A stretch of 47,477 nt of DNA from a virus: positions 1 to 47,477 of the IMG/VR virus record IMGVR_UViG_3300046538_000166. The stretch is one strand, 5' to 3'. This document shows positions 1,735 through 47,477 of the stretch, one piece after another. Positions within the stretch are counted from its first letter, which is position 1, and each line of letters opens with the position of its first letter. The notes under the pieces were generated by a model. That model made no database searches. It was given only the letters and a program-made list of their open reading frames with translations, and was not told where the DNA came from. A program made the position numbers and the translations under genes.

Positions 1735-2082
1735 ATGACGAATAGCAGCTTGGAATCCTTACCTCACCCTGACGTAGACAAGGTGTCGGAAGACGTTATG
1801 GCACATTTCTTAGGCATTTCGTCTAGAGCTCTTGCGACGCGACGCGCACGCAAACAGATACCCGAGGGAGTCTGGAACAAGCAAGGACATCGCATTATGT
1901 ACAGCAAAAGAAGGTACGAGGAATGGCAAGAAGCACAATGGATTTGCCCAGTGGAGTGGAAATCTTCCGCAAATCCCTCAGGATTCGTTTTACTTGGAAT
2001 GGGGCCCGAAGATGCGAAACGCTCCCCTACCCCGCGACGCCGAAAGGCATTAAAGCTGCATCCCAGCTACGCGATCAAGTAA
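1735..2082 (+). CDS. excisionase-like protein, prophage A
   Basis: A 115-aa protein with a helix-turn-helix-like segment (SEDVMAHFLGISSRALATRRA) and IPEGVWNKQGHRIMYSKRRYEEW, as in excisionase/AlpA-type proteins that recognise att-site DNA. It is about 80% identical by eye to the protein at 46176-46523. Its last 53 codons overlap the start of the integrase gene in another frame. The location directly before int supports a role in excision or in controlling int. It could also be a repressor of int. Confidence 0.6.
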   Translation: MTNSSLESLPHPDVDKVSEDVMAHFLGISSRALATRRARKQIPEGVWNKQGHRIMYSKRRYEEWQEAQWICPVEWKSSANPSGFVLLGMGPEDAKRSPTPRRRKALKLHPSYAIK

Positions 2083-3116
2083 GAAGCCTGATCAAGCTCG
2101 GCCTCTTGGATGATATCAAGTACACCGAGCTGTTCCCCGGCTCGGTCGTTCTGCTGAATAGCATTCCGACGTTTCACGAGTACGCCCAGCTTTGGCTAGA
2201 TGGTCGGGTTATTACTACCGGTACGCGCAACAACTACAAAGGCGCGCTCAACCTTTACTGGATTCCGCCTCTGGCACTGGTCCGTCTCGATCAAATCACC
2301 CCCACGCTCCTACGCCGCGTTATTGCGGCCACGGATTGGACATCGCCAGGCGTTCGGCGTAACGCTCTGGTCAAACTGTCGACGATTCTGGAAGCGGCAG
2401 TAGCTGAAGAATTGATCAAGAAGAATCCGGCCGCAACGATAGACCGACCCAAGCGATCGCGAAAGGAGATCAGTCCATTCTCCTTGGACGAAGCGAACCG
2501 CATCATTGCCCACCTGTACCAAACAACGCACTGGCCCAGCGGGATCTACGCCGCATTCTTTGAGTTCGCATTCTTCACGGGGCTTCGGCTGTCGGAGGTC
2601 GCGGCGTTGCGCTGGGATGCTGTCGACTTAGTGAAACGCCAGGTACATGTCTGCCGAACCGTCGCGCTTGGTGTGGTCGAAGAGCGCACCAAAACAGGCA
2701 AAGACCGGTTCGTACTGCTGAATGAGCGAGCGCTGCACGCGCTTGAGTTCGCCCGCCTATACGCAGCGCGTCGTGCTAACGGAATCGGCAAGATCAAAAC
2801 CACGCCCTACGTGTTCCCGCCTTCGAAGAACGGCGAGTACATCAAGCAGACGTCAGACCTTCACAAACAATGGAGGCCAACGCTGGAAGCTTTAGCGATG
2901 CCTTATCGTCCGCCGTACAACTGCCGTCATACTTATGCGACAATATGCTTAATGTCCAACATGAACCCCGCATTCATCGCTCAGCAGCTTGGCCACAGTG
3001 TCCAAATGTTGCTGACGACGTATGCGCGTTGGCTCAACTCAAGCTCAGACTGGGCGGAGCTGGAAAAGCTCCAGATTGGTATCAAATCGGTATCAGGCAA
3101 AAAAGACCAGCTCTAA
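1923..3116 (+). CDS. int: tyrosine-type site-specific integrase, prophage A
   Basis: A 397-aa protein; a second ATG at 1938 (MDLPSGVEIF) is also possible. The N-terminus looks like an arm-binding domain (IRFTWNGARRCETLPYPATP), then a core-binding domain (about 90-190) and a catalytic domain. Visible catalytic residues are R in TGLRLSE, K in TKTGKDR, R-H in NCRHTYAT, H in LGHS and the nucleophile Y in LTTYARW, so it appears intact. It integrates and excises the prophage by strand exchange between att sites. A close paralogue begins at 46364. Confidence 0.9.
   Translation: MARSTMDLPSGVEIFRKSLRIRFTWNGARRCETLPYPATPKGIKAASQLRDQVRSLIKLGLLDDIKYTELFPGSVVLLNSIPTFHEYAQLWLDGRVITTGTRNNYKGALNLYWIPPLALVRLDQITPTLLRRVIAATDWTSPGVRRNALVKLSTILEAAVAEELIKKNPAATIDRPKRSRKEISPFSLDEANRIIAHLYQTTHWPSGIYAAFFEFAFFTGLRLSEVAALRWDAVDLVKRQVHVCRTVALGVVEERTKTGKDRFVLLNERALHALEFARLYAARRANGIGKIKTTPYVFPPSKNGEYIKQTSDLHKQWRPTLEALAMPYRPPYNCRHTYATICLMSNMNPAFIAQQLGHSVQMLLTTYARWLNSSSDWAELEKLQIGIKSVSGKKDQL
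2910..3036 (+). repeat. 127-bp perfect direct repeat, copy 1 (inside int)
   Basis: These bases are identical to 47351-47477, the end of the window. Position 2909 is t and 47350 is a, so identity starts exactly there, while the rest of the two integrase genes differs at many third positions. The block encodes the catalytic RHTYAT...LGHS...YARW region. Either an exchange or attachment event homogenised it, or the window is a contig that stops at a repeat. Confidence 0.85.
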
Positions 3117-3253
3117 CCCATTGATAGGTAAGGTAATTGATCTCCACAGCTAACATCACGATGCGATCTTAAGGGCATCGCGGTGTAGCGTCAGGCGTAG
3201 TAAATTCAAGGACTTGAGCCGCACAGGATCGCAGGAGTACGCCACGAAATGCA

Positions 3254-3622: not shown

Positions 3623-3832
3623 ATGCCAAACTCAGACCTGCTCCCTTCCCTGCTATTCAAGATCAATGAAAACCAGCTCGCCCTTGAGGCTGCCATCTTG
3701 GAGCTTTCGAATTGGGTGGAGATGCGCGGATCGGCAGACGTAGCTGACAACGTGCGCGGCGCCCTGGACACGATTGACCGCAATGAAGAGTTCATCAAGA
3801 TGACACTCGCGGTGCTCATGACACCTGAGTGA
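3623..3832 (+). CDS. conserved 69-aa hypothetical protein, copy 1
   Basis: A 69-aa acidic, helical protein (INENQLALEAAILELSNWVE, then VADNVRGALDTIDRNEEFIKM) with a GGAGG site 8 bases before its ATG. A copy at 10494-10703 differs at only about 10 residues, and the two also share the upstream string CTGCTACGCTGAA. It contains no catalytic motif and is probably an all-alpha small protein. I do not recognise a function. Confidence 0.65.
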   Translation: MPNSDLLPSLLFKINENQLALEAAILELSNWVEMRGSADVADNVRGALDTIDRNEEFIKMTLAVLMTPE

Positions 3833-3965: not shown

Positions 3966-4121
3966 ACAGATCATTTCTGTACCACTTTCGTACCATTGCA
4001 TTTCTTTTCTTCTATGCTACCCCTTTATCGTCAATGGCTTTAATGGCACCCTGCTATCGAGGCCAACCCGCGCGTCATGATTCCCGCTGAAGGCTTACCC
4101 CCTTTTGACAAGAGGCGATTT

Positions 4122-5432
4122 ATGGGCAGTTTTTCAATAGAACACCTTTCAGAAGATATCCACTTTTCAAAGACAAAGACTTACTTCAAAGAAGTCTTAT
4201 CTTCGTATCGAAACGAAAACTATCGATCTGCAGTGGTCATGCTATGGTCAGTAGCTGTATGCGACGTAATTTACAAGCTTCAGAGCCTCGTAGACATCTA
4301 CAACGACGCTATTGCTAGGGAAATTTTAGCTGACATCAGCGCGACCCAAGATGCTCAACCGACATCATCTACCTGGGAAATAACCTTAATAGACGAGGTA
4401 TTTAGAAAGACAAAACTACTTGATGCGCTTGAGCACGAAAACTTAAGATCCCTACAGAAACAACGACACCTTTCAGCGCACCCTATACTCAATCGTGATA
4501 GAGAACTACACTCACCAAACAAGGATACAACCAGAGCGTTACTCAGAAACACATTAGAAGGATTACTGACAAAGCCTCCATTCTACACAAACAAGATATT
4601 AGATGAGTTGCTAGCAGATCTTTCCGAGAGTGCCGAAGCGTTAAACACCCGATCTAAGGTCAGCCAATATTTAGAGACCAGATATCTCCGACGCCTAAAG
4701 CCAGAGACACAAATGGCTTTATTTAAAACATTCTGGAAACTCACTTTCAGAGTAGTCAACGAGGAATGCAATCAACATCGAAGGCTGAACTTGCACGTCC
4801 TCGAATGTATCAGCGCCCGGCAGCATGCGCGCATTCCCGACACAATAAGAGACGATCAAGACTTCTACGGCAACACTGCCTCAGGCGGAATGGCATTAAC
4901 CTACCTGACTTATTATCTTGCAAATAACCCTCAGCTTTATGGTTGCCTACCAGAAGCTACACGGCTAAAAATATTGCATCACATTGATAATGACGAACAT
5001 GGCAAGGTCCTAGGTTGGTTTACCAAAAACAATCTTGAGACCCACTACACCGACCTCTTGGCATGGATTGTTGGCGAGGCGTACCCAACAATTGACCAAG
5101 AGCTCTGGACTGTTCTTCTTTCGTTTGAAGACACGGTAGAATGGCAAAGAAGCTGCTGCAAGCTTATGGGGGCCTATTACGCTAAAAGTGGAAGCTTTAA
5201 CACTGCGGACTCAAGATTTCAAAACGCAATACAGCCAAACCTTAGTTTGTTTGACACAGATGCACTAGGCTTCATGCTAGAACGCATTGAAACGAACAAT
5301 CAAACCTTCCATCGGGGTCGGGCAGAGAGCGACCATACCAAGATCATAGATCGAATCGCAGAAATTCATGCGAATTTCGATTACTCTAGGTTTCCACATT
5401 TTTTACGCCTAACTGAAGCTGAAACCTTATAA
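4122..5432 (+). CDS. HEPN-like putative RNase, possible phage-defence gene
   Basis: A 436-aa protein. I chose the ATG at 4122 (MGSFSIEHLSEDIHFSK) because AGAGG precedes it; an upstream ATG at 4077 has no ribosome site. The N-terminal 130 residues look like a HEPN helical bundle: YRSAVVMLWSVAVCDVIYKLQ, then KQRHLSAHPIL, which fits the R-x4-H catalytic motif. HEPN RNases often mediate abortive infection. The C-terminal 300 residues are helical and not recognised. The gene is AT-richer than the phage genes and stands alone, followed by a terminator, as a cargo gene would. Confidence 0.55.
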   Translation: MGSFSIEHLSEDIHFSKTKTYFKEVLSSYRNENYRSAVVMLWSVAVCDVIYKLQSLVDIYNDAIAREILADISATQDAQPTSSTWEITLIDEVFRKTKLLDALEHENLRSLQKQRHLSAHPILNRDRELHSPNKDTTRALLRNTLEGLLTKPPFYTNKILDELLADLSESAEALNTRSKVSQYLETRYLRRLKPETQMALFKTFWKLTFRVVNEECNQHRRLNLHVLECISARQHARIPDTIRDDQDFYGNTASGGMALTYLTYYLANNPQLYGCLPEATRLKILHHIDNDEHGKVLGWFTKNNLETHYTDLLAWIVGEAYPTIDQELWTVLLSFEDTVEWQRSCCKLMGAYYAKSGSFNTADSRFQNAIQPNLSLFDTDALGFMLERIETNNQTFHRGRAESDHTKIIDRIAEIHANFDYSRFPHFLRLTEAETL

Positions 5433-5444
5433 TTTCTCCCTATG

Positions 5445-5595
5445 CACACCCCGATTGTGTTGGAGTACTAACGCAAAAAAGCCCTACAGTCCCGGAAACA
5501 AAGGGCTGTAGGGCTTTTTTGACACCGTATGTTTTTTGTTCATTTGGCATTAAATGGCGTAGGTTGGCGTAGGGTTTGCCCCATTTTTGCCCCAT
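5445..5595 (+). repeat. 150-bp direct repeat, copy 1
   Basis: The segment from CACACCCCGATTGTGTTGG to TTGCCCCATTTTTGCCCCAT recurs at 9617-9766 with scattered differences and one indel. It contains a terminator and the motif TTGGCATTAAATGGC. The pair encloses about 4 kb of cargo, as att sites or an ancestral duplication would. The double GCCCCAT motif resembles integrase 3' ends that encode MGQ.WGK-type tails on the other strand (inference). Confidence 0.65.
5475..5520 (+). terminator. intrinsic terminator after the HEPN-like gene
   Basis: Perfect 15-bp arms AAAAAAGCCCTACAG / CTGTAGGGCTTTTTT (5475-5489 with 5506-5520). It lies 43 bases past the HEPN-like stop codon and can work in both directions. 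Confidence 0.85.
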
Positions 5596-5969
5596 TCGTT
5601 TGCTCTTGTCTTTCTAACGCACGCCCATAGAATCCTGTATCGACACCTCACAGAAGTGCTTTGTACGCTGGTGGCCGAGCGGGTCTCGGTTCAGGCCAGC
5701 CCGTTCAAGGACATCGTTCTATGTGAAGCAGTGCAGGTGGTGCCGAAGCTAATGGTCCAGGCATTACCTACAGACACCAGCGCCGCACACCAATTGTGTT
5801 GGAGTACTAACGTAAAAAGCCCTACAGCCCCGAATTGCAGGACCATAGGGCGGTGTTGGCAAAGCGATTGACGGTAACTCTTGGCATCAAATGGCGTTGG
5901 TTGGAATTACCCAAAACCACCCAGGGAAGAAGTACCTATCTCACTGCGGATGAGTGTCAGGCATCATTA
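5596..5969. other. gene-free stretch with a degenerate third repeat copy
   Basis: No gene can be supported here. Positions 5787-5904 hold a decayed copy of the 150-bp repeat: TTGTGTTGGAGTACTAAC, then AAAAAGCCCTACAG whose right stem arm is eroded, then TTGGCATCAAATGGCG. The open frame across 5587-5871 merely runs through this and matches nothing that I recognise. Confidence 0.5.
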
Positions 5970-6995
5970 CTATGAAAAATCGCTAGAGTCGAGCAAACCC
6001 CAAAGCCATTTCATAGCAATAAAATATGGAGCCATAGTGAGGACAAGAAGCGCTACATCTAAATTTCGATTCCATGGCTGTTGCCATGCAGAGTTGGCAT
6101 GAAGTAGAAGCAAGGGAACAATCACGCCAAAAAACAAAATAGCGCCCCCGACAAACAACATAATTTTAGAGCGCTCCCGTATTTTAAATCTTCCACTGTA
6201 AAGCCGTAAAACCCTCAACGACGCATCAAGTTTTGGAACAACCTCCGTCTCAAACCCTTTAATACGCTCAAAAAAGTCCACGATTATTCTAGAGTATCCA
6301 AATTTTTCTCTAGGTCTTACATGTTGCACCCGCAATTCAGCTGCCTTATCTGCATACCCCATAGCTGCTATCTTTTGCAACATAGGCTCATGCATACGAG
6401 AAAGAGCGTCTAGCTCTTTACGACCTTCCACCTCTTCACAGCGTGAAGCCAACTCCAAAACAGAATCGCTATGCCTCCCCCAAAAAATCATTAACTCAAC
6501 TACTATGCGCCTTACAGAAAGCAGCCGCTCTTCCGTGAAAGCATCTTCTTTTTTATTTCGGACATCAATTGATAGGTTCTCCGCTGACTGGACTATAGGC
6601 TTTCCGGAAAACGGATAAGAAACCGAAACCACATAAAGCATATTAATAAACTCGTGACACGCCTCAACAACTACCTCATCATCCTGCGATTCAATTGTTT
6701 CTCCAATAGACCTTCCTTCATACATTGGAAATATCGACTTTGCCTTTTTGAGCGTTTTACGGATACCCTCCCAACTCAGCCCACCATTTTTATCAATCAA
6801 ACTAGGATTATCAAAACCAATATAATGAGAAGGCGAGGTGTATTTCTCAACCCAAGCAATCAATTCGCGAAATACATCGTTGGCCTCTTGAATTTTTTGA
6901 TAACCATACATCACAAACACCGAATACAATGCACCTACGATACCAATAAGTGTTGCATGAATTGCTGGCAATGCTTCTAAAATCGGAAATGCCAT
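5970..6995 (-). CDS. membrane protein of unknown function
   Basis: A 341-aa protein starting at the ATG at 6995 (MAFPILEALPAIH); an in-frame TTG at 7007 is an alternative. It has one membrane helix near the N-terminus (ATLIGIVGALYSVFVMYGY), a roughly 230-residue charged cytoplasmic region, and two helices at the C-terminus (IMLFVGGAILFFGVIVPLLLL and VALLVLTMAPYFIAMKWLW). No catalytic motif is evident and I do not recognise the family. It is AT-rich cargo inside the direct-repeat-bounded block, next to a PIN-like nuclease, so an accessory or defence role is possible but unproven. Confidence 0.55.
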   Translation of the reverse strand: MAFPILEALPAIHATLIGIVGALYSVFVMYGYQKIQEANDVFRELIAWVEKYTSPSHYIGFDNPSLIDKNGGLSWEGIRKTLKKAKSIFPMYEGRSIGETIESQDDEVVVEACHEFINMLYVVSVSYPFSGKPIVQSAENLSIDVRNKKEDAFTEERLLSVRRIVVELMIFWGRHSDSVLELASRCEEVEGRKELDALSRMHEPMLQKIAAMGYADKAAELRVQHVRPREKFGYSRIIVDFFERIKGFETEVVPKLDASLRVLRLYSGRFKIRERSKIMLFVGGAILFFGVIVPLLLLHANSAWQQPWNRNLDVALLVLTMAPYFIAMKWLWGLLDSSDFS

Positions 6996-7162
6996 CTCCC
7001 CCCCCAAAAAACCTAATATTTATTCTCTCTAAAGATTAATGTAGTCTCTTTGCGAAAAAAACTCTATCCGCACAAAGCTAATACTTCGATGCTACAGGCG
7101 TAGATGTAATTTGTTCGAAACGCAGCCCCCACCACCCGCCGCTCAACCGGCTGCGCACGCAT

Positions 7163-7340
7163 TCACTTCGCTTTAGAGACTTGCTTGACGTATCCCTGAC
7201 ACGCAGCCAGGGCGATCAATTCTTGGTCACCGGCATCGGTGATGGCGACAATTTTTTGAGCTCGCGCCAGTCCCTCCCTAGTTACTCAGCTTGGGCTGCA
7301 GGATCACCCGTGCCAGCATCACCAGTATGCCCAGAACGCC
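7163..7340 (-). pseudogene. relic of phage lysis genes (Rz C-terminus and a small membrane protein)
   Basis: Read leftward, codons ending at the TGA at 7163-7165 give KIVAITDAGDQELIALAACQ and a GYVKQVSKAK tail, clearly related to the Rz protein encoded at 12945-13487. Just upstream, another frame gives a hydrophobic tail, YGVLGILVMLARVILQPK, ending at a TAG. Neither has an intact start. This is a deletion remnant of another prophage's lysis cassette, now fused to integrase relic DNA. Confidence 0.65.
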
Positions 7341-8110
7341 GTAGGCTGGCCACGTTCGCGGGCTTTTTGGCATGGTGCGAAAACAACAACTACTGCCGCA
7401 AAGGACTGTCCGCTGCCTGCGTAAGATTCGCGATGACGGACCGCGAGCCGGACCCGCCGACCAAAGATGAGTTCGAACAGCTAATTAACAAGGATTGCCT
7501 TCACGTGCAGGACTCCGCGGCGGTGACCCTGACGGTCTACACTGGCCTTCGCCCAGGCGAGTTGTGCGCACTGGCTGTCGAAGATATCGACCTAATCGCA
7601 GGCCAGATCAACATCACCAGGGCAATCACTACAGACGGCACATTCAAAGTACCTAAGACTGGAAAACCTCGGGCAGTGCTTCTGATGCCACCCGCTGTCG
7701 AAGCCTGCAAAACGTTAATGGAGTTGGTGGCTGGTCACGAACCGCGGAAGATCGAGGTGTACATGAACCGTCATGAAAGCCGTATCGAAACGGTCACCCC
7801 AATGCTATCCCCGACAACACAAGCCAGAAAAAAGATCATTAATCATTGGTTTATTCCCACTTCATGGAATACGAAGTGGGCAGCTATCCAGAAGCGGTCC
7901 TGCATTCACCCGCGCCGCCCATACCAAACCCGCTACACTTACGCCTGCTGGTGCCTAACAGCAAGGGGAAACCTTGTTTTCATTGCAAAGCAGATGGGTC
8001 ACAAAGACTTCACCATGTTGGTGGAAGTCTATGCGAAATGGATGGATGATGAATCTCCCAGAGAGCTACAAAACATCTGGGAGAGTATCAACAGAACAAA
8101 AACTAGCTAG
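7341..8110 (+). pseudogene. 5'-truncated tyrosine integrase
   Basis: About 255 codons of a catalytic domain. R is in TGLRPGEL, K in PKTGKPR, R in PYQTRYTYA, H in MGHKDF and the nucleophile Y in EVYAKWM. The arm-binding and most of the core-binding domains are missing: the open frame upstream runs through the lysis-gene relic on the other strand. It belongs to a different integrase subfamily from the int genes at 1923 and 46364. It is probably inactive, although the catalytic residues survive. Confidence 0.7.
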
Positions 8111-9404
8111 TCTTATATGAACTACCCGCAATAAAAAAATCGATCGACTTCAGCTGGTATCTCATTGTCGTATTTTGAAGCGTCAAATCCTGCAAAGCGC
8201 GGTGCATCAACTCACGGTCAGAAGAAGAACTTTCGATCTCAGAACCCAATTGATTTATCTGAGAAGACAGCCTCATGGAGTGAAGCGATTCGACACCATT
8301 ATTACTAGCCAATGAATTTGAATATCGCACGAGCGCTTCCTGACGCTCGTGCGACTTTCGCTCAATAGCATAGTCTAACAGTTCTATTTGTAATTGCTGC
8401 GCACCGATCTGCCTTTCTAAAATATCGATTTTTGCTAACAACTCCTGCCTTTCGCTATCTGAATAAGCAACATCCATCAAAAAGTTTTGCTTAAACCCCT
8501 GCTTTTTCAGCAACAGAAGATCTGCCAAGTCCTCGGCACGAACATCTACAATTTCATCAATAGCACTTTGAGATGTTGCCCTATCAAGATATTCGTTAGC
8601 ACGCCCCATGAATTTCTCAGGAAGATACATATAAAAATTCTGACCTACCGCCTTAACAAACTCATCCACCAACTGCGGGTGCGGCTCCAATGGCTTGCCG
8701 CTATAGATACTCCACCAATCCTCTTTACTATCACCGGTTACGAAAATAACAGGCAAGCCATCTGCTTTAGCCTTCGCTAAAGTTTGCCTCCAAACGATAT
8801 AATCCCCGTAAGGCTTTAGCTTATCCGCAGCGAGGTCAGAGTCACCGCCTTTCTTCGCATCCTTATAACCAGGGGGAGTTTTCTGCAAATACCTCAAAGG
8901 CCCAGCTAGCAGAACGTCAGCTACTTCCTCCTCTGTCAAACTTTCACCAACACGCCCTTCAAGCAATTCTTCAAGCCCAGCTTTTACATCATCAACTTCT
9001 ATCTTTTGCAAGTACGCTTTCTTATTTAAACCCAAGTCCTCTACTATCTTCTCAAACGAAACTATTGCCACCCTTAAAGTTTCGTCCTGCACAAACGGAT
9101 GCTGCTTAGGGTTTTCAAATGAGCGCCTAAGATCCTCTACACTTTTAACAGCATCCTCATAAACCTTAACTTGCTGCCCAATAACACTTACTCTATTAAC
9201 CAAGTATTCACTTGCAACCTGATGTGGAACCCACAGCCTATCATTTAGAAGCTTGAATATTTCAAAAAGTTCGGAACGAGTTTCGTTCGAATACCGATAT
9301 AGACTTAGCAACACATTGGCATCTAAAACAAAAAGACAACGCCCCCAAATATCATTCAAAATATCGGGATCATTCGAAAAATACCCCGGAAACATTTTTT
9401 TCAT
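8103..9404 (-). CDS. PIN-like domain nuclease with coiled-coil tail
   Basis: A 433-aa protein with AAGGG before its ATG. The N-terminal 260 residues look like a PIN-like (PIN_8-type) domain: LFVLDANVLLSLYRYS with acidic D28, an acidic SEYL, and VIFVTGDSKEDWW, which would supply the metal-binding acids of a ribonuclease. Residues about 290-420 are predicted coiled coil. It is AT-rich and convergent with the integrase relic (8-bp overlap). Such proteins are often found in defence islands and mobile elements. Its target is unknown. Confidence 0.65.
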   Translation of the reverse strand: MKKMFPGYFSNDPDILNDIWGRCLFVLDANVLLSLYRYSNETRSELFEIFKLLNDRLWVPHQVASEYLVNRVSVIGQQVKVYEDAVKSVEDLRRSFENPKQHPFVQDETLRVAIVSFEKIVEDLGLNKKAYLQKIEVDDVKAGLEELLEGRVGESLTEEEVADVLLAGPLRYLQKTPPGYKDAKKGGDSDLAADKLKPYGDYIVWRQTLAKAKADGLPVIFVTGDSKEDWWSIYSGKPLEPHPQLVDEFVKAVGQNFYMYLPEKFMGRANEYLDRATSQSAIDEIVDVRAEDLADLLLLKKQGFKQNFLMDVAYSDSERQELLAKIDILERQIGAQQLQIELLDYAIERKSHERQEALVRYSNSLASNNGVESLHSMRLSSQINQLGSEIESSSSDRELMHRALQDLTLQNTTMRYQLKSIDFFIAGSSYKTS

Positions 9405-9616
9405 GTTCTACCCTTCCGATGAGTGATCGTCCCTCGCTCCCGCAGAGCCACTGGATCGTCTCCCATGTTACCCTCACTCGCACAGAATAGCGTTGCAGCT
9501 GTGCGGCTTTCTAACAGCCAATCCATCAGGCTGTAAAATGCCCCATTTTTGCCCCACACTTTTTATCGAATATCGCTAAGTCACTGATGAATAAAGCAAT
9601 TTCTGATTTATCCTCC
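9405..9616. other. spacer with att-like motif
   Basis: I see no gene. At about 9536-9560 there is an isolated copy of the double motif TGCCCCATTTTTGCCCCA that also ends both 150-bp repeats, so the site family has at least three members here. Confidence 0.4.
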
Positions 9617-9766
9617 CACACCCCGATTGTGTTGGAGTACTAACGCAAAAAGCCCTACAGCCCTGAAAATAAAGGGCTGTAGGGCTCTTTTGACAAATCG
9701 CGGATATGGTTCATTTGGCATTAAATGGCATTGGTTGGCGTACGATTTGCCCCATTTTTGCCCCAT
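9617..9766 (+). repeat. 150-bp direct repeat, copy 2
   Basis: This is the counterpart of 5445-5595, in the same orientation and with the same internal order: CCCCGATTGTGTTGGAGTAC, terminator, TTGGCATTAAATGGC, double GCCCCAT. The two copies bound a block carrying the membrane protein, lysis relic, integrase relic and PIN-like gene. Confidence 0.65.
9651..9686 (+). terminator. intrinsic terminator inside repeat copy 2
   Basis: Perfect 14-bp arms AGCCCTACAGCCCT / AGGGCTGTAGGGCT (9651-9664 with 9673-9686), followed by CTTTTG. It is the sister of the hairpin at 5475-5520. Confidence 0.8.
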
Positions 9767-10168: not shown

Positions 10169-10493
10169 TGCAGGCAATCGATTGTCGCCTCGCCCGCTGA
10201 CACGGCCTGCTGAAGAACGAGCCGATCCGGATCATTCCTACGTTGTCTATCGAACGTTCGAACGATGATGGATTGGATGTAGCAATCCACTGCAGCCCGG
10301 CCCGCCTAGCCCTTCCCGTTTTATTTCTGCTCCTTGTAGCAATTTTTAAGCAGTCTGTAAGACAGGCCTGTCACGGGCACTACCGGCTCTTGGTGTGTCG
10401 TCTTGGGGAGTCGATCCTTGCTGAGGAAAGGGGGCAGCAAGTCACCCTTTCATCAGTCGACTGCTACGCTGAATTTTTCATGGGGGATTCGCG
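10169..10493. other. gene-free stretch upstream of the second 69-aa gene
   Basis: No gene can be supported. A compact palindromic string (TCGAACGTTCGAACGA, about 10250-10265) lies near the left end, and the CTGCTACGCTGAA string shared with the upstream region of the 3623 gene lies near the right end (10459 onward), probably part of that gene's promoter. Confidence 0.35.
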
Positions 10494-10703
10494 ATGCCAC
10501 ACTCTGACCTGCTCCCTTCCCTGCTGTTGAAGATCAATGAAAACCAACTCGCCCTGGAAGCGGCTATCCTGGAGCTTACGAATTGGGTCGAGCAGCGGGG
10601 AAGCGCGGATGTCGCCGACAACGTGCGCGGTGCCCTGGAGGCGATCGACCGTAACGAGGAGTTCATCAAGATGACGCTCGCGGTGATGATGACCCAGGAG
10701 TGA
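10494..10703 (+). CDS. conserved 69-aa hypothetical protein, copy 2
   Basis: A 69-aa protein nearly identical to the one at 3623-3832 (shared PSLL-KINENQLALEAAIL and VADNVRGAL blocks). GGGGG precedes the ATG. The two copies flank the HEPN/PIN cargo region, so it may have been duplicated together with element boundaries. Its function is not recognised. Confidence 0.65.
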   Translation: MPHSDLLPSLLLKINENQLALEAAILELTNWVEQRGSADVADNVRGALEAIDRNEEFIKMTLAVMMTQE

Positions 10704-10959: not shown

Positions 10960-11214
10960 CTATATCGATAACACCACAGTGCCCGTTGCATGGTGCGCTG
11001 CCATTTCAGAGCGAAGCTCACCAATCAAATTTGCAATAGCGCAGCTGGATGTCAATTCGCTGGTCGAGCCTGCAGTGGCCAATAGATCAACCCGTCCAGA
11101 GCTTGAGTCGAACACTTTGATCATCAATGATCCATCTGGATTGACAGTGCAGGTACAAGAGAGAGGCTGAAATCCACATTCAACGATATGACGAAGCTCA
11201 AGCGTAGAAATCAT
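10960..11214 (-). CDS. DUF1652 family protein
   Basis: An 84-aa protein with the hallmarks of this largely Pseudomonas family: an N-terminal LELRHIVECGFQPLSCTCTV, then GSLMIKVFD, SGRVDLLATAG and AIANLIGELRSEM. Its function is unknown. It supports a Pseudomonas origin for the window. It stands alone, with no operon partner. Confidence 0.7.
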   Translation of the reverse strand: MISTLELRHIVECGFQPLSCTCTVNPDGSLMIKVFDSSSGRVDLLATAGSTSELTSSCAIANLIGELRSEMAAHHATGTVVLSI

Positions 11215-11999: not shown

Positions 12000-12794
12000 T
12001 TAGAATAATCCTCCCAACGCTGCCGGCTCCCAGTTCATGATCACCAACTCGCCGCTGACCTCGGCTTTACCTTGGCGCTGATTGGTGTTGCTGTAGCGGA
12101 TGTCCAGCGTCTCGAAGTGGAAGCCCTCAAACACCCGGCGGATATCGGGATGGTCGTTGATGCTGACCATCACCTTGCCCTTGCAGCGCCGCATGAAGTT
12201 AGCCATCCGCTCATAGTTCTCGAAGGGAAAGTCCACCCCATAGCCGGCGGTCTGCCAGTAAGGCGGGTCCATATAATGGAAGGTATGGGCACGGTCGTAG
12301 CGTTCGGCGCATTCAAGCCAGGGGAGATTTTCGACATAGGTGCCGGACAGGCGCTGCCAGGCGGCCGAGAGGTTTTCCTCGATCCGCAGCAGGTTAATGG
12401 CCGGGCCGGTGGTCGCGGTACCGAACGTCTGCCCAGTGACCTTGCCGGCGAAGGCATGGTGCTGCAGGTAGAAGAATCGGGCAGCGCGCTGGATGTCGGT
12501 GAGGGTTTCCGGGCGGGTCATCTTCTGCCACTCGAACACCTGCCGCGAGCTGAGCGCCCATTTGAACTGGCGCACGAACTCTTCGAGGTGGTTCTGCACG
12601 ACACGGTACAGCGTCACCAGCTCGCCATTGATGTCGTTGAGGACTTCCACGGGCGCGGCCTGCGGTCGCATGAAATACAGCGCTGCACCGCCGGCAAAGA
12701 CTTCAACGTAGCACTCGTGAGGCGGGAAGAGAGGAATGAGACGGTCGGCCAGGCGGCGTTTGCCGCCCATCCACGGGATGATGGGAGTAGACAT
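12000..12794 (-). CDS. D12-class DNA adenine methyltransferase
   Basis: A 264-aa protein starting at the ATG at 12794 (MSTPIIPWMGGKRRLADRL); a TTG at 12803 is in frame. The AdoMet-binding motif is PWMGGKRRL...YVEVFAGGAALYF and the catalytic motif is DPPYW (in FHYMDPPYWQTAGYG), as in Dam-type N6-adenine methylases. Phage enzymes of this kind protect the phage genome from restriction or mimic host marks. The target site cannot be read from the sequence. It is the last gene of the late strand, set apart from Rz by 150 bases and preceded by a LexA-like box, so it may have its own DNA-damage-responsive promoter. Confidence 0.85.
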   Translation of the reverse strand: MSTPIIPWMGGKRRLADRLIPLFPPHECYVEVFAGGAALYFMRPQAAPVEVLNDINGELVTLYRVVQNHLEEFVRQFKWALSSRQVFEWQKMTRPETLTDIQRAARFFYLQHHAFAGKVTGQTFGTATTGPAINLLRIEENLSAAWQRLSGTYVENLPWLECAERYDRAHTFHYMDPPYWQTAGYGVDFPFENYERMANFMRRCKGKVMVSINDHPDIRRVFEGFHFETLDIRYSNTNQRQGKAEVSGELVIMNWEPAALGGLF

Positions 12795-12811
12795 AGAGAG
12801 CAAGACCTTTA

Positions 12812-19327: not shown

Positions 19328-19927
19328 TCAAACCCCGTCGTCTTGCTCCAGGCGAAAATAGCCGGCCTGCAGGCGGTTGTAGTCCACCACCTTCAGGCCC
19401 TCCAGATCGGCGATAGCCGCACCGGCCAGCTCGGCGAACAGCACCAGTTCGCGCTGCTCGTCGTCACCACCTGCCGCCCGATCCGCGGCCCGCACCTCGC
19501 GCACCGTGGGCGAGCGCAGGGTCAGCTTGTCGATCTGCACACCGTTGACCTCGCTCGGGCGCGACAGGCTGACCACGGCGTTTTCCGCGGTGACCGACAA
19601 CCAGGTGGGGAGCGATTTCGAATAGTCGGCGTGCGGTACCAGGTTCGAATAGGCCGCCTGCAGACGGCGATAGTCCACCACCTTCAGGCCTTCCAGATCC
19701 TTGAGGCCCGCCTCGGCCAGACTGGCGAACAGCTGCAGCTCGCGCAGTTCGTCATCGTCACCCGCGGCGCGGTCAGCGGCACGGACTTCGCGTACCAGCG
19801 GTGCGCGCAGCACCAACGAATCAACCTTCACGCCGTTGACTTCGCTCGGACGCGAGAGCGTGACGACGGCGTTTTCAGTGTTGAGCACCAGCCAGGCCGG
19901 CAGCTTGTTTGCAGTTTGCATGGTCAT
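19328..19927 (-). CDS. tail assembly chaperone E-like, internally duplicated
   Basis: A 199-aa protein of the P2 E / Mu gp41 family, but with two copies of the domain. Residues about 8-96 (LPAWLVLNTENAVVTLSRPS...LRELQLFASLAEAGLKDLEG) and 106-196 (LPTWLSVTAENAVVSLSRPS...RELVLFAELAGAAIADLEG) are homologous along their whole length. Members I know of are about half this size. It would chaperone the tape measure before tube assembly. Confidence 0.75.
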   Translation of the reverse strand: MTMQTANKLPAWLVLNTENAVVTLSRPSEVNGVKVDSLVLRAPLVREVRAADRAAGDDDELRELQLFASLAEAGLKDLEGLKVVDYRRLQAAYSNLVPHADYSKSLPTWLSVTAENAVVSLSRPSEVNGVQIDKLTLRSPTVREVRAADRAAGGDDEQRELVLFAELAGAAIADLEGLKVVDYNRLQAGYFRLEQDDGV

Positions 19928-46175: not shown

Positions 46176-46523
46176 ATGGCCAATACCGAACTGGAGACGA
46201 TCCCTCACCCCGAAGTAGACAAGGTATCGGAAGAAGTCATGGCCCACATCCTGGGCATTTCGTTTAGAGCGCTCGCTACTCGGCGCGCACGCAAGCAGAT
46301 CCCTGAAGGCGTTTGGAACAAGCTGGGGAATCGCATTATGTACAGCAGAAAGAGATACTACGAATGGGAAGAAGCACAATGGATTTGCCCGATGGAGTTG
46401 AACTCTTCCGCAAATCCCTCAGGATTCGTTTTACTTGGAACGGTACCCGCCGAAGCGAAACGCTCCCCTTCCCCACGACGCAGAAAGGCATTAAAGCTGC
46501 ATCCCAATTACGCGATCAAGTAG
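46176..46523 (+). CDS. excisionase-like protein, prophage B
   Basis: A 115-aa protein from the ATG at 46176, with GGAG eight bases upstream. VSEEVMAHILGISFRALATR and IPEGVWNKLGNRIMYSRKRY are nearly the same as in the 1735-2082 protein. Its end overlaps the integrase start out of frame by about 160 bases, an arrangement kept in both prophages. Excisionases direct the integrase toward excision. Confidence 0.6.
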   Translation: MANTELETIPHPEVDKVSEEVMAHILGISFRALATRRARKQIPEGVWNKLGNRIMYSRKRYYEWEEAQWICPMELNSSANPSGFVLLGTVPAEAKRSPSPRRRKALKLHPNYAIK

Positions 46524-47477
46524 ACAACCTGATCAAGCTCGGGCTCTTGGATGACGCCAAGTACGCCGAGCTGTTCCCCGGTTCGACTACCCCACTCGGT
46601 GGCATTCCAAACTTCCACGAGTACGCCCAGCTATGGCTTGATGGCCGGGTCATCGCTGAAGGTACTCGCAACAACTACAAGGGCGCGCTGAATCTCTACT
46701 GGATTCCACCGCTTGCCCTGGTACGCATCGACCTGATCACCACCACACTCCTGCGCCGCATTATCGCGGCCACGGAGTGGACGTCTCCGGGTGTGCGGCG
46801 CAACGCGCTGGTCAAGCTCTCTACGATTCTGGAAGCGGCCGTAGCTGAAGAGCTGATCAAGAAAAATCCCGCAAAGATGATCGATCTTCCGAAGCGAGGG
46901 CGAAAGGAAATCAACCCGTTCTCGCTGGACGAAGCCAACCGAATCATTGATCACCTCTACCAGACGCAACATTGGCCCAGTGGAATTTACGCTGCATTCT
47001 TTGAATTCGCGTTCTTCACCGGGCTCCGTCTGTCTGAAGTCGCTGCGCTGCGCTGGGATGCCGTTGACCAGGTGAAACGCCAGGTTCATGTCTGCCGCAC
47101 AGTGGCGTTGGGTGTTGTAGAAGAACGCACCAAAACCGGAAAGGATCGGTTCGTACTGCTGAACGAGCGAGCGTTGCACGCGCTGGAGTTTGCCCGCCAG
47201 TACGCCGAGCGCCGCGCCAAAGGTATCGGCAAGGTGAAAACCACGCCCTACGTGTTTCCGCCGTCGAAGAACAGCGAGTACATCAAACAGACCTCCGATC
47301 TGCACAAACAGTGGGGTCCAGCACTGAAAGCGCTGACGATGCCTTATCGACCGCCGTACAACTGCCGTCATACTTATGCGACAATATGCTTAATGTCCAA
47401 CATGAACCCCGCATTCATCGCTCAGCAGCTTGGCCACAGTGTCCAAATGTTGCTGACGACGTATGCGCGTTGGCTCA
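46364..47477 (+). CDS. int: tyrosine integrase, prophage B (cut by the window end)
   Basis: At least 371 codons, with no stop before the window ends. The ATG at 46364 or 46379 matches the 1923/1938 pair. My translation gives IRFTWNGTRRSETLPFPTTQ, R in TGLRLSEV, K in TKTGKDR, RHTYAT, LGHS and TTYARW, so all catalytic residues seen are intact. It is close to the integrase at 1923-3116 in protein sequence, diverged at silent sites, and identical in DNA over the last 127 bases. Confidence 0.85.
   Translation, partial: MGRSTMDLPDGVELFRKSLRIRFTWNGTRRSETLPFPTTQKGIKAASQLRDQVDNLIKLGLLDDAKYAELFPGSTTPLGGIPNFHEYAQLWLDGRVIAEGTRNNYKGALNLYWIPPLALVRIDLITTTLLRRIIAATEWTSPGVRRNALVKLSTILEAAVAEELIKKNPAKMIDLPKRGRKEINPFSLDEANRIIDHLYQTQHWPSGIYAAFFEFAFFTGLRLSEVAALRWDAVDQVKRQVHVCRTVALGVVEERTKTGKDRFVLLNERALHALEFARQYAERRAKGIGKVKTTPYVFPPSKNSEYIKQTSDLHKQWGPALKALTMPYRPPYNCRHTYATICLMSNMNPAFIAQQLGHSVQMLLTTYARWL
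47351..47477 (+). repeat. 127-bp perfect direct repeat, copy 2 (window end)
   Basis: Identical to 2910-3036. It runs to the last base, so the true repeat may continue beyond the window. See copy 1 for interpretation. Confidence 0.85.

Follow-up and report, generated by a model that had tools for sequence, protein, structure and literature searches.

Defence hotspots of P2 and P4 prophages are variable single-cassette slots at fixed phage positions, in which known defence systems are found. A selection in E. coli brought PD-T7-3 to light, and the protection it gives is stronger for T-even phages than for T7 (PMC9519451); the system has been named among HEPN systems in a review (PMC10952713) and seen in Pseudomonas islands (PMC12629846). 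At the motif HTPMMQQ, mobile elements are known to insert into mutS and to provide it with a new start (Chu 2017, PMC5296598). Here we analyze IMG/VR virus record IMGVR_UViG_3300046538_000166, the entire 47,477 bp of which we call the window, and within it three genes lying between 4122 and 9404: gene 1, a full-length PD-T7-3; gene 2, which encodes a membrane protein; and gene 3, which encodes a PIN_8 protein. All three open reading frames (ORFs) are open and intact. We suggest, with a probability of about 0.7, that each is stand-alone cargo from one of the two variable ends of temperate phages of Pseudomonas type, kept where prophages have stacked at attachment (att) sites, and that they would act in the ways proposed below. 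Gene 1 is no new find, the good candidates are gene 3 and, in particular, gene 2, and the two slots that such genes occupy (one between an integrase and mutS, the other between a 69-amino-acid ORF, orf69, and the lysis gene Rz) are the result that can be generalized.

Three single genes

By its sequence, gene 1 is a known defence protein, a member of a family experimentally shown to block phage (the demonstration concerns the family, not the present copy). Positions 1–428 of the 432 in the PADLOC PD-T7-3 profile cover residues 16–442 of a longer ORF that opens at 4077, and residue 16 corresponds to base 4122. An earlier note on this DNA, made from the letters and their ORFs, had placed the start of a HEPN-like gene at that base; the start and the HEPN-like identity both agree with the PADLOC and PDB matches. 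The latter are to solved Dandelion structures, with a full-chain match to 9wxf, a match of the HEPN part to 9wx2 and one of the C-terminal part to 9wwz (E values in Table 1). Counted from 4122, the R-x4-H motif is RHLSAH at residues 115–120. Both the PDB homologue and plasmid relatives retrieved without motif patterns retain it, and together they form the unbiased support, whereas the conservation of RHLxAHP in 16 viral relatives is partly built in, as the search pattern contained the motif. A literature search for 'Dandelion' found no paper on function. The gene is single by its organization, standing between orf69 and an att core, and a plasmid relative (L167; contigs used for comparison carry L numbers) is also a lone gene, between conjugation genes. 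In another prophage contig a 52% relative lies beside a tyrosine integrase (L170:5315-8081). We propose that the protein would remain silent until infection and would then cleave RNA through the HEPN pair R115/H120.

Gene 2 is a good candidate for a new defence gene. Its preferred start is the ATG at 6995, as in its relatives, rather than the TTG at 7007, and its charge distribution predicts a single membrane helix at the N terminus, a helical stretch in the cytosol and a two-helix hairpin at the C terminus. Searches by sequence against Pfam, NCBIfam, PADLOC, PHROGs and the PDB gave no match. The family is a lone gene in every carrier, whether prophage, plasmid or integron. One relative (84%) adjoins orf69 and Rz in prophage contig L004 and a distant one (24%) adjoins Rz and lysozyme in prophage L101, both in the same left-end slot, and a further relative directly follows the replication gene of a P2-like prophage (L100); in P2 itself, tin and old lie near the replication gene. 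Two Acinetobacter plasmids carry members of the family, and in Vibrionaceae they occur as integron cassettes: attC-like repeats of ~125 bp flank the gene on both sides in L006 (5852-5974, 7072-7193), and in L008 such a repeat lies directly 3' of it (9074-9193) and recurs throughout the array. The ~1.1-kb unit of the Vibrionaceae cassettes is also present in Pseudoalteromonas (L009). Gene 2 is a new candidate that lends itself to study, being a single gene whose distant relatives are found in several carriers. Its product may sit at the inner membrane with its cytosolic helical part as a sensor, and could be an abortive-infection or superinfection-exclusion protein.

Gene 3 matches the entire Pfam profile PIN_8 (PF18476) over residues 24–245, with 201.9 bits against a curated cut-off of 26.1, and it also matches phrog_9788. 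The profile match upholds the earlier description of this gene as PIN-like, and D28, the residue singled out there, is one of eight acidic residues (E66, D201 and D229 among them) that are invariant in 12 relatives reaching down to 28% identity. The C-terminal ~130 residues are variable, helical and coiled-coil-like. The PIN assignment rests on sequence, because the structure model (predicted local distance difference test score, pLDDT, of 64; built from five sequences) was too poor to match any PIN structure and gave no Foldseek match at E<=0.001. A literature search for PF18476 found no paper on function. A toxin-antitoxin module of the VapC/VapBC type was considered and rejected, as no antitoxin gene is adjacent and PIN_8 stands alone between mutS and the integrase in L010-L013. 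We propose that the protein would cut RNA or DNA with D28/E66/D201/D229 once a partner domain, probably the C-terminal coiled coil, is triggered. In a relative with another integrase type (L018:1986-7609), a PIN gene is again found near the integrase: PDC-S31, an HNH protein and a PIN_12 protein lie beside it.

Stacked elements and a prophage fossil

The host is probably a Pseudomonas, because the window has a DUF1652 gene (10960-11214, by profile match), a family that we take to be confined to Pseudomonas, because it matches tail genes of phage PS17, and because named Pseudomonas phages hold a 55% relative of orf69. The G+C content of the three-gene region is 42-45%, against 60-65% over the phage body. 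A circular phage genome was rejected, as no terminal repeat was found in the record; the final 1.3 kb (46203-47477) instead repeats 1762-3036 at 83% identity, which fits stacked elements. Near the tail tube gene, a 257-bp stretch is present within one phage ORF as two tandem copies that are 74% alike (19357-19904).

The earlier note had placed the three genes at a prophage junction, and this placement can be resolved into three att junctions, one of ybiT type at ~3165 and two of mutS type at 5445 and 9617. Several of the features involved were absent from that note: a truncated integrase (7181-8110, + strand), the twice-present orf69 (3623, 10494), the integrase copy at the far end and the att-site repeats. 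At the first junction, window positions 3100-3164 are 97-100% identical to eight contigs, which continue into ybiT (E=1e-271 for the match of the encoded protein to YbiT), whereas the window continues into a phage left arm; by these alignments, elements with the first integrase type (int1) insert in the 5' end of ybiT. The core of the other two junctions, CACACCCCGAT, is found at both 5445 and 9617 and is followed each time by a left arm of ~150 bp. Relatives of the second integrase (int2) insert in mutS at the HTPMM codons; the intact ones run into host mutS, whereas the MNKAISDLSSHTP of the window runs into phage sequence. Just downstream of gene 1, at 5430-5456, TATAAT...ATGCACACCCCGAT would offer mutS an alternative start codon directly before HTP, and is possibly a second type of element end.

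Between the two mutS cores the order is left arm, gene 2, the 3' end of Rz, the C-terminal part of int2, PIN_8 and 13 mutS codons. Positions 6951-7267, covering gene 2 and then the Rz 3' end, align contiguously to L004/L081 at 81%, and 7195-7348 are 93% identical to L055; from 7346 onward the window aligns to the integrases of L010, L011, L012 and L068. The alignment thus switches from Rz to integrase at ~7346, and therefore one deletion, as read from these alignments, joined Rz to int2 and removed the phage body, leaving the end genes 2 and 3 open. In our interpretation the cargo has two origins (Table 1). Gene 2, from the left-end slot, and PIN_8, from the int2-mutS slot, are the two ends of one mutS-targeting prophage, as is seen when either side is aligned with intact relatives, and PD-T7-3 would occupy the left-end slot (att, orf69, cargo, Rz) of a ybiT-targeting element. 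A like layout, with an int1 remnant, att core, orf69, cargo and Rz plus a full int1-type integrase, is present in another contig (L133, L127).

Table 1. Features of the window, in order of position
Feature	Coordinates	Strand	Evidence
Tyrosine integrase int1, right end of upstream element	1923..3116	+	Pfam Phage_integrase 5e-16; relatives L102-L131 end beside host ybiT
att1 core, 5' end of ABC-F gene ybiT; junction of two elements	3134..3165	+	Eight contigs, 97-100%
orf69 copy 1 (phrog_12397), prophage left-end marker	3623..3832	+	243-bp repeat with 10461-10703, 82%
Gene 1, PD-T7-3 (Dandelion) HEPN defence protein	4122..5432	+	PADLOC 5.2e-168; PDB 9wxf 2.5e-64
mutS-type att core CACACCCCGAT with phage left arm and terminator	5445..5595	+	86.8% to 9617-9766; 88% to L068, 86% to L077
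Degenerate second left-arm copy	5783..5904	+	77.6% to 9616-9738
Gene 2, single-gene membrane-protein family (predicted N-terminal helix, cytosolic helical part, C-terminal hairpin)	5970..6995	-	Relatives L004, L008, L009, L100, L101, plasmids
Lysis gene Rz (spanin), 3' end, truncated	7162..7346	-	Contiguous with gene 2 in L004/L081; L055 match
C-terminal part of mutS-targeting integrase int2, fused to Rz remnant at ~7346	7346..8110	+	82-88% protein identity to integrases of L010-L013, L068
Gene 3, PIN_8 nuclease-like protein with C-terminal coiled coil	8103..9404	-	PF18476 1.7e-59
First 13 mutS codons (MNKAISDLSSHTP, 9587-9625) and second mutS-type att core	9587..9627	+	Translation, comparison with L010 mutS
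Second mutS-type left arm	9617..9766	+	~150 bp, 87% alike to arm at 5445
orf69 copy 2; intact phage body begins here	10494..10703	+	243-bp repeat, phrog_12397
int1-type integrase of downstream phage, runs off record	46364..47477	+	88.7% protein identity to int1

Two variable slots

Thirty-three int2-type loci were compared, 29 of which reach mutS or the att core. Some contigs recur under second identifiers (L134=L010, L138=L012, L148=L068, L149=L011, L157=L013), and the counts of 29 and 11 given here are without double counting. The slot is empty in 4 of the 29 loci, where mutS starts 47 bp after the integrase. PIN_8 is the commonest occupant (11/29), followed by a ClpP-like protein recognized by eye, without profile confirmation, in 5/29. 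A TacAT-like pair (TacA-type antitoxin plus GNAT-like toxin) and DUF4325 modules are found in two loci each and a PARIS-like AriA/AriB pair in one, and the remainder hold other genes; a Gp49-type toxin is also among the cargo. The mutS-targeting phages put their own sequence in place of the mutS promoter and 5' end (9587-9627; L010, L013, L134-L166). Where the slot is occupied, PIN_8 or other cargo lies upstream of mutS, whose expression may therefore be phage-dependent.

Left-end loci were picked by orf69 alone, which has 489 relatives in IMG/VR and is often present in two or three copies around cargo, as in L019, L021, L034, L042, L071, L077 and L133. Recombination between such orf69 repeats may drive cargo exchange. 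The cargo of these loci includes Zorya I (L030), Shedu (L079), PDC-S06 (L031), PDC-S31 (L018), PDC-S35 (L064), PARIS-like genes of AriA/AriB type (L060), an OLD-like ATPase (L023) and SIR2 (L071, with a relative in L076). Zorya, Shedu and PDC-S31 lie on the att side of orf69 and not on the Rz side; orf69 therefore marks the phage end as a whole. When Pseudomonas genomes were sampled by way of the class of another locus, 185 genomes gave no convincing marker match. In the window, the interval from the left-end slot to Rz holds a gene for a D12-class adenine methyltransferase (12000-12803), and related ORFs are found in other orf69 loci.

Alternative readings and comparison with known systems

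That the three genes are stand-alone and form no operon, as the earlier note had put it, is borne out by their differing strands and origins and by relatives of genes 2 and 3 that are single elsewhere; an operon or multi-gene system was accordingly rejected, the relatives of the three genes being different. The interpretation in that note is largely right, although its reading of all three as defence cargo goes further than the evidence. Only gene 1 belongs to an experimentally tested family; defence genes are present in related prophages, whereas for genes 2 and 3 it is context that points to defence, and from this we infer their anti-phage activity. Selection would have kept genes 1-3.

Several observations weigh against this interpretation. 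Structure prediction, which the earlier note had proposed for each protein, was carried out for genes 2 and 3; for gene 2 it gave an all-helical AlphaFold model (mean pLDDT 73) that matched no fold in the PDB or among viral proteins. Recognizable catalytic residues are absent from gene 2, and PIN_8 proteins match no PADLOC model. Both slots also hold O-acyltransferases (8 members at orf69 loci), transporters and other non-defence genes, so position alone is no proof of defence. The comparison genes, those >3 kb from orf69, included defence genes as well, since the Zorya (L030) and Shedu (L079) islands reach past 3 kb; we therefore claim no statistical enrichment of defence genes. The interpretation does not account for the mutS-type arms within a ybiT-type element. 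An assembly error in the public contig is possible, although independent contigs match both sides of each junction and no repeat lies at the 7346 junction.

Genes 2 and 3 could instead serve prophage maintenance, through addiction or superinfection exclusion directed at related phages, and not broad defence, with PIN_8 as a stand-alone toxin that stabilizes the element. We regard this as possible, if rather unlikely. The slot is at the edge of the element, adjoining the integrase, its cargo includes the TacA-type antitoxin/GNAT-like toxin pair and the Gp49-type toxin, and PIN proteins include the VapC toxins; PIN_8, however, has no accompanying antitoxin ORF in L010-L013, and the PARIS-like pair shares the same slot. 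It is improbable that gene 2 alters phage receptors or lysis timing without conferring immunity: its relatives do adjoin Rz and lysozyme in L004 and L101, but in integron cassettes and on plasmids the family travels in the absence of lysis genes. Neutral hitchhiking from decayed prophages, with no present role, would suit an element between 5445 and 9617 that is plainly a fossil with truncated integrase and Rz, yet it is very improbable given that the two end genes are open over ~340 and 433 codons while the junction genes are truncated, and that relatives of genes 2 and 3 are retained as lone ORFs at 24-42% identity.

We retain the interpretation as stand-alone phage-end cargo. A bolder form of it, in which gene 2 founds a new family of lone membrane anti-phage proteins, PIN_8 is an undescribed defence family of the int-mutS slot and selection kept the two immune ends of the fossil, is offered tentatively and is doubtful at present. 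The int2-to-mutS and orf69-to-Rz slots are defined by sequence, so any Pseudomonas genome can be searched at them for candidate anti-phage genes, and alleles in which the slot is empty provide internal controls. At the int-mutS slot, the event that brings in a cargo gene also gives the mismatch-repair gene mutS a different start and promoter, so that a connection between immunity and mutation rate can be put to the test.

Compared with the P2 and P4 hotspots, the slots described here are alike in being variable cassettes at fixed positions and differ in the phage family and in the slots themselves. Gene 3 contains the whole of PIN_8 (PF18476, phrog_9788), to which it adds the variable C-terminal coiled coil and a fixed site between the mutS-type integrase and mutS. 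Gene 1 shares with PD-T7-3 (Vassallo 2022; Dandelion PDB 9wxf, 9wx2, 9wwz) a full-length sequence match, the HEPN R-x4-H motif and a single-gene organization, but it is clearly diverged from the solved protein and is located in a Pseudomonas-type prophage end. The mutS elements of Chu 2017 (PMC5296598) insert in the identical mutS codons and likewise carry a mutS start; that survey required an integrase <300 bp from mutS, whereas most elements here have 1.2-4.4 kb of cargo between the two, and the occupied slots therefore fell largely outside it. With the mutS-cinA prophage site of fluorescent Pseudomonas (Mavrodi 2009, PMC2647930), the window shares the host neighbourhood of the mutS-type element and contractile-tail phage genes, and it differs from that site in its stacked prophages, its two integrase types and the fossil that lies between them.

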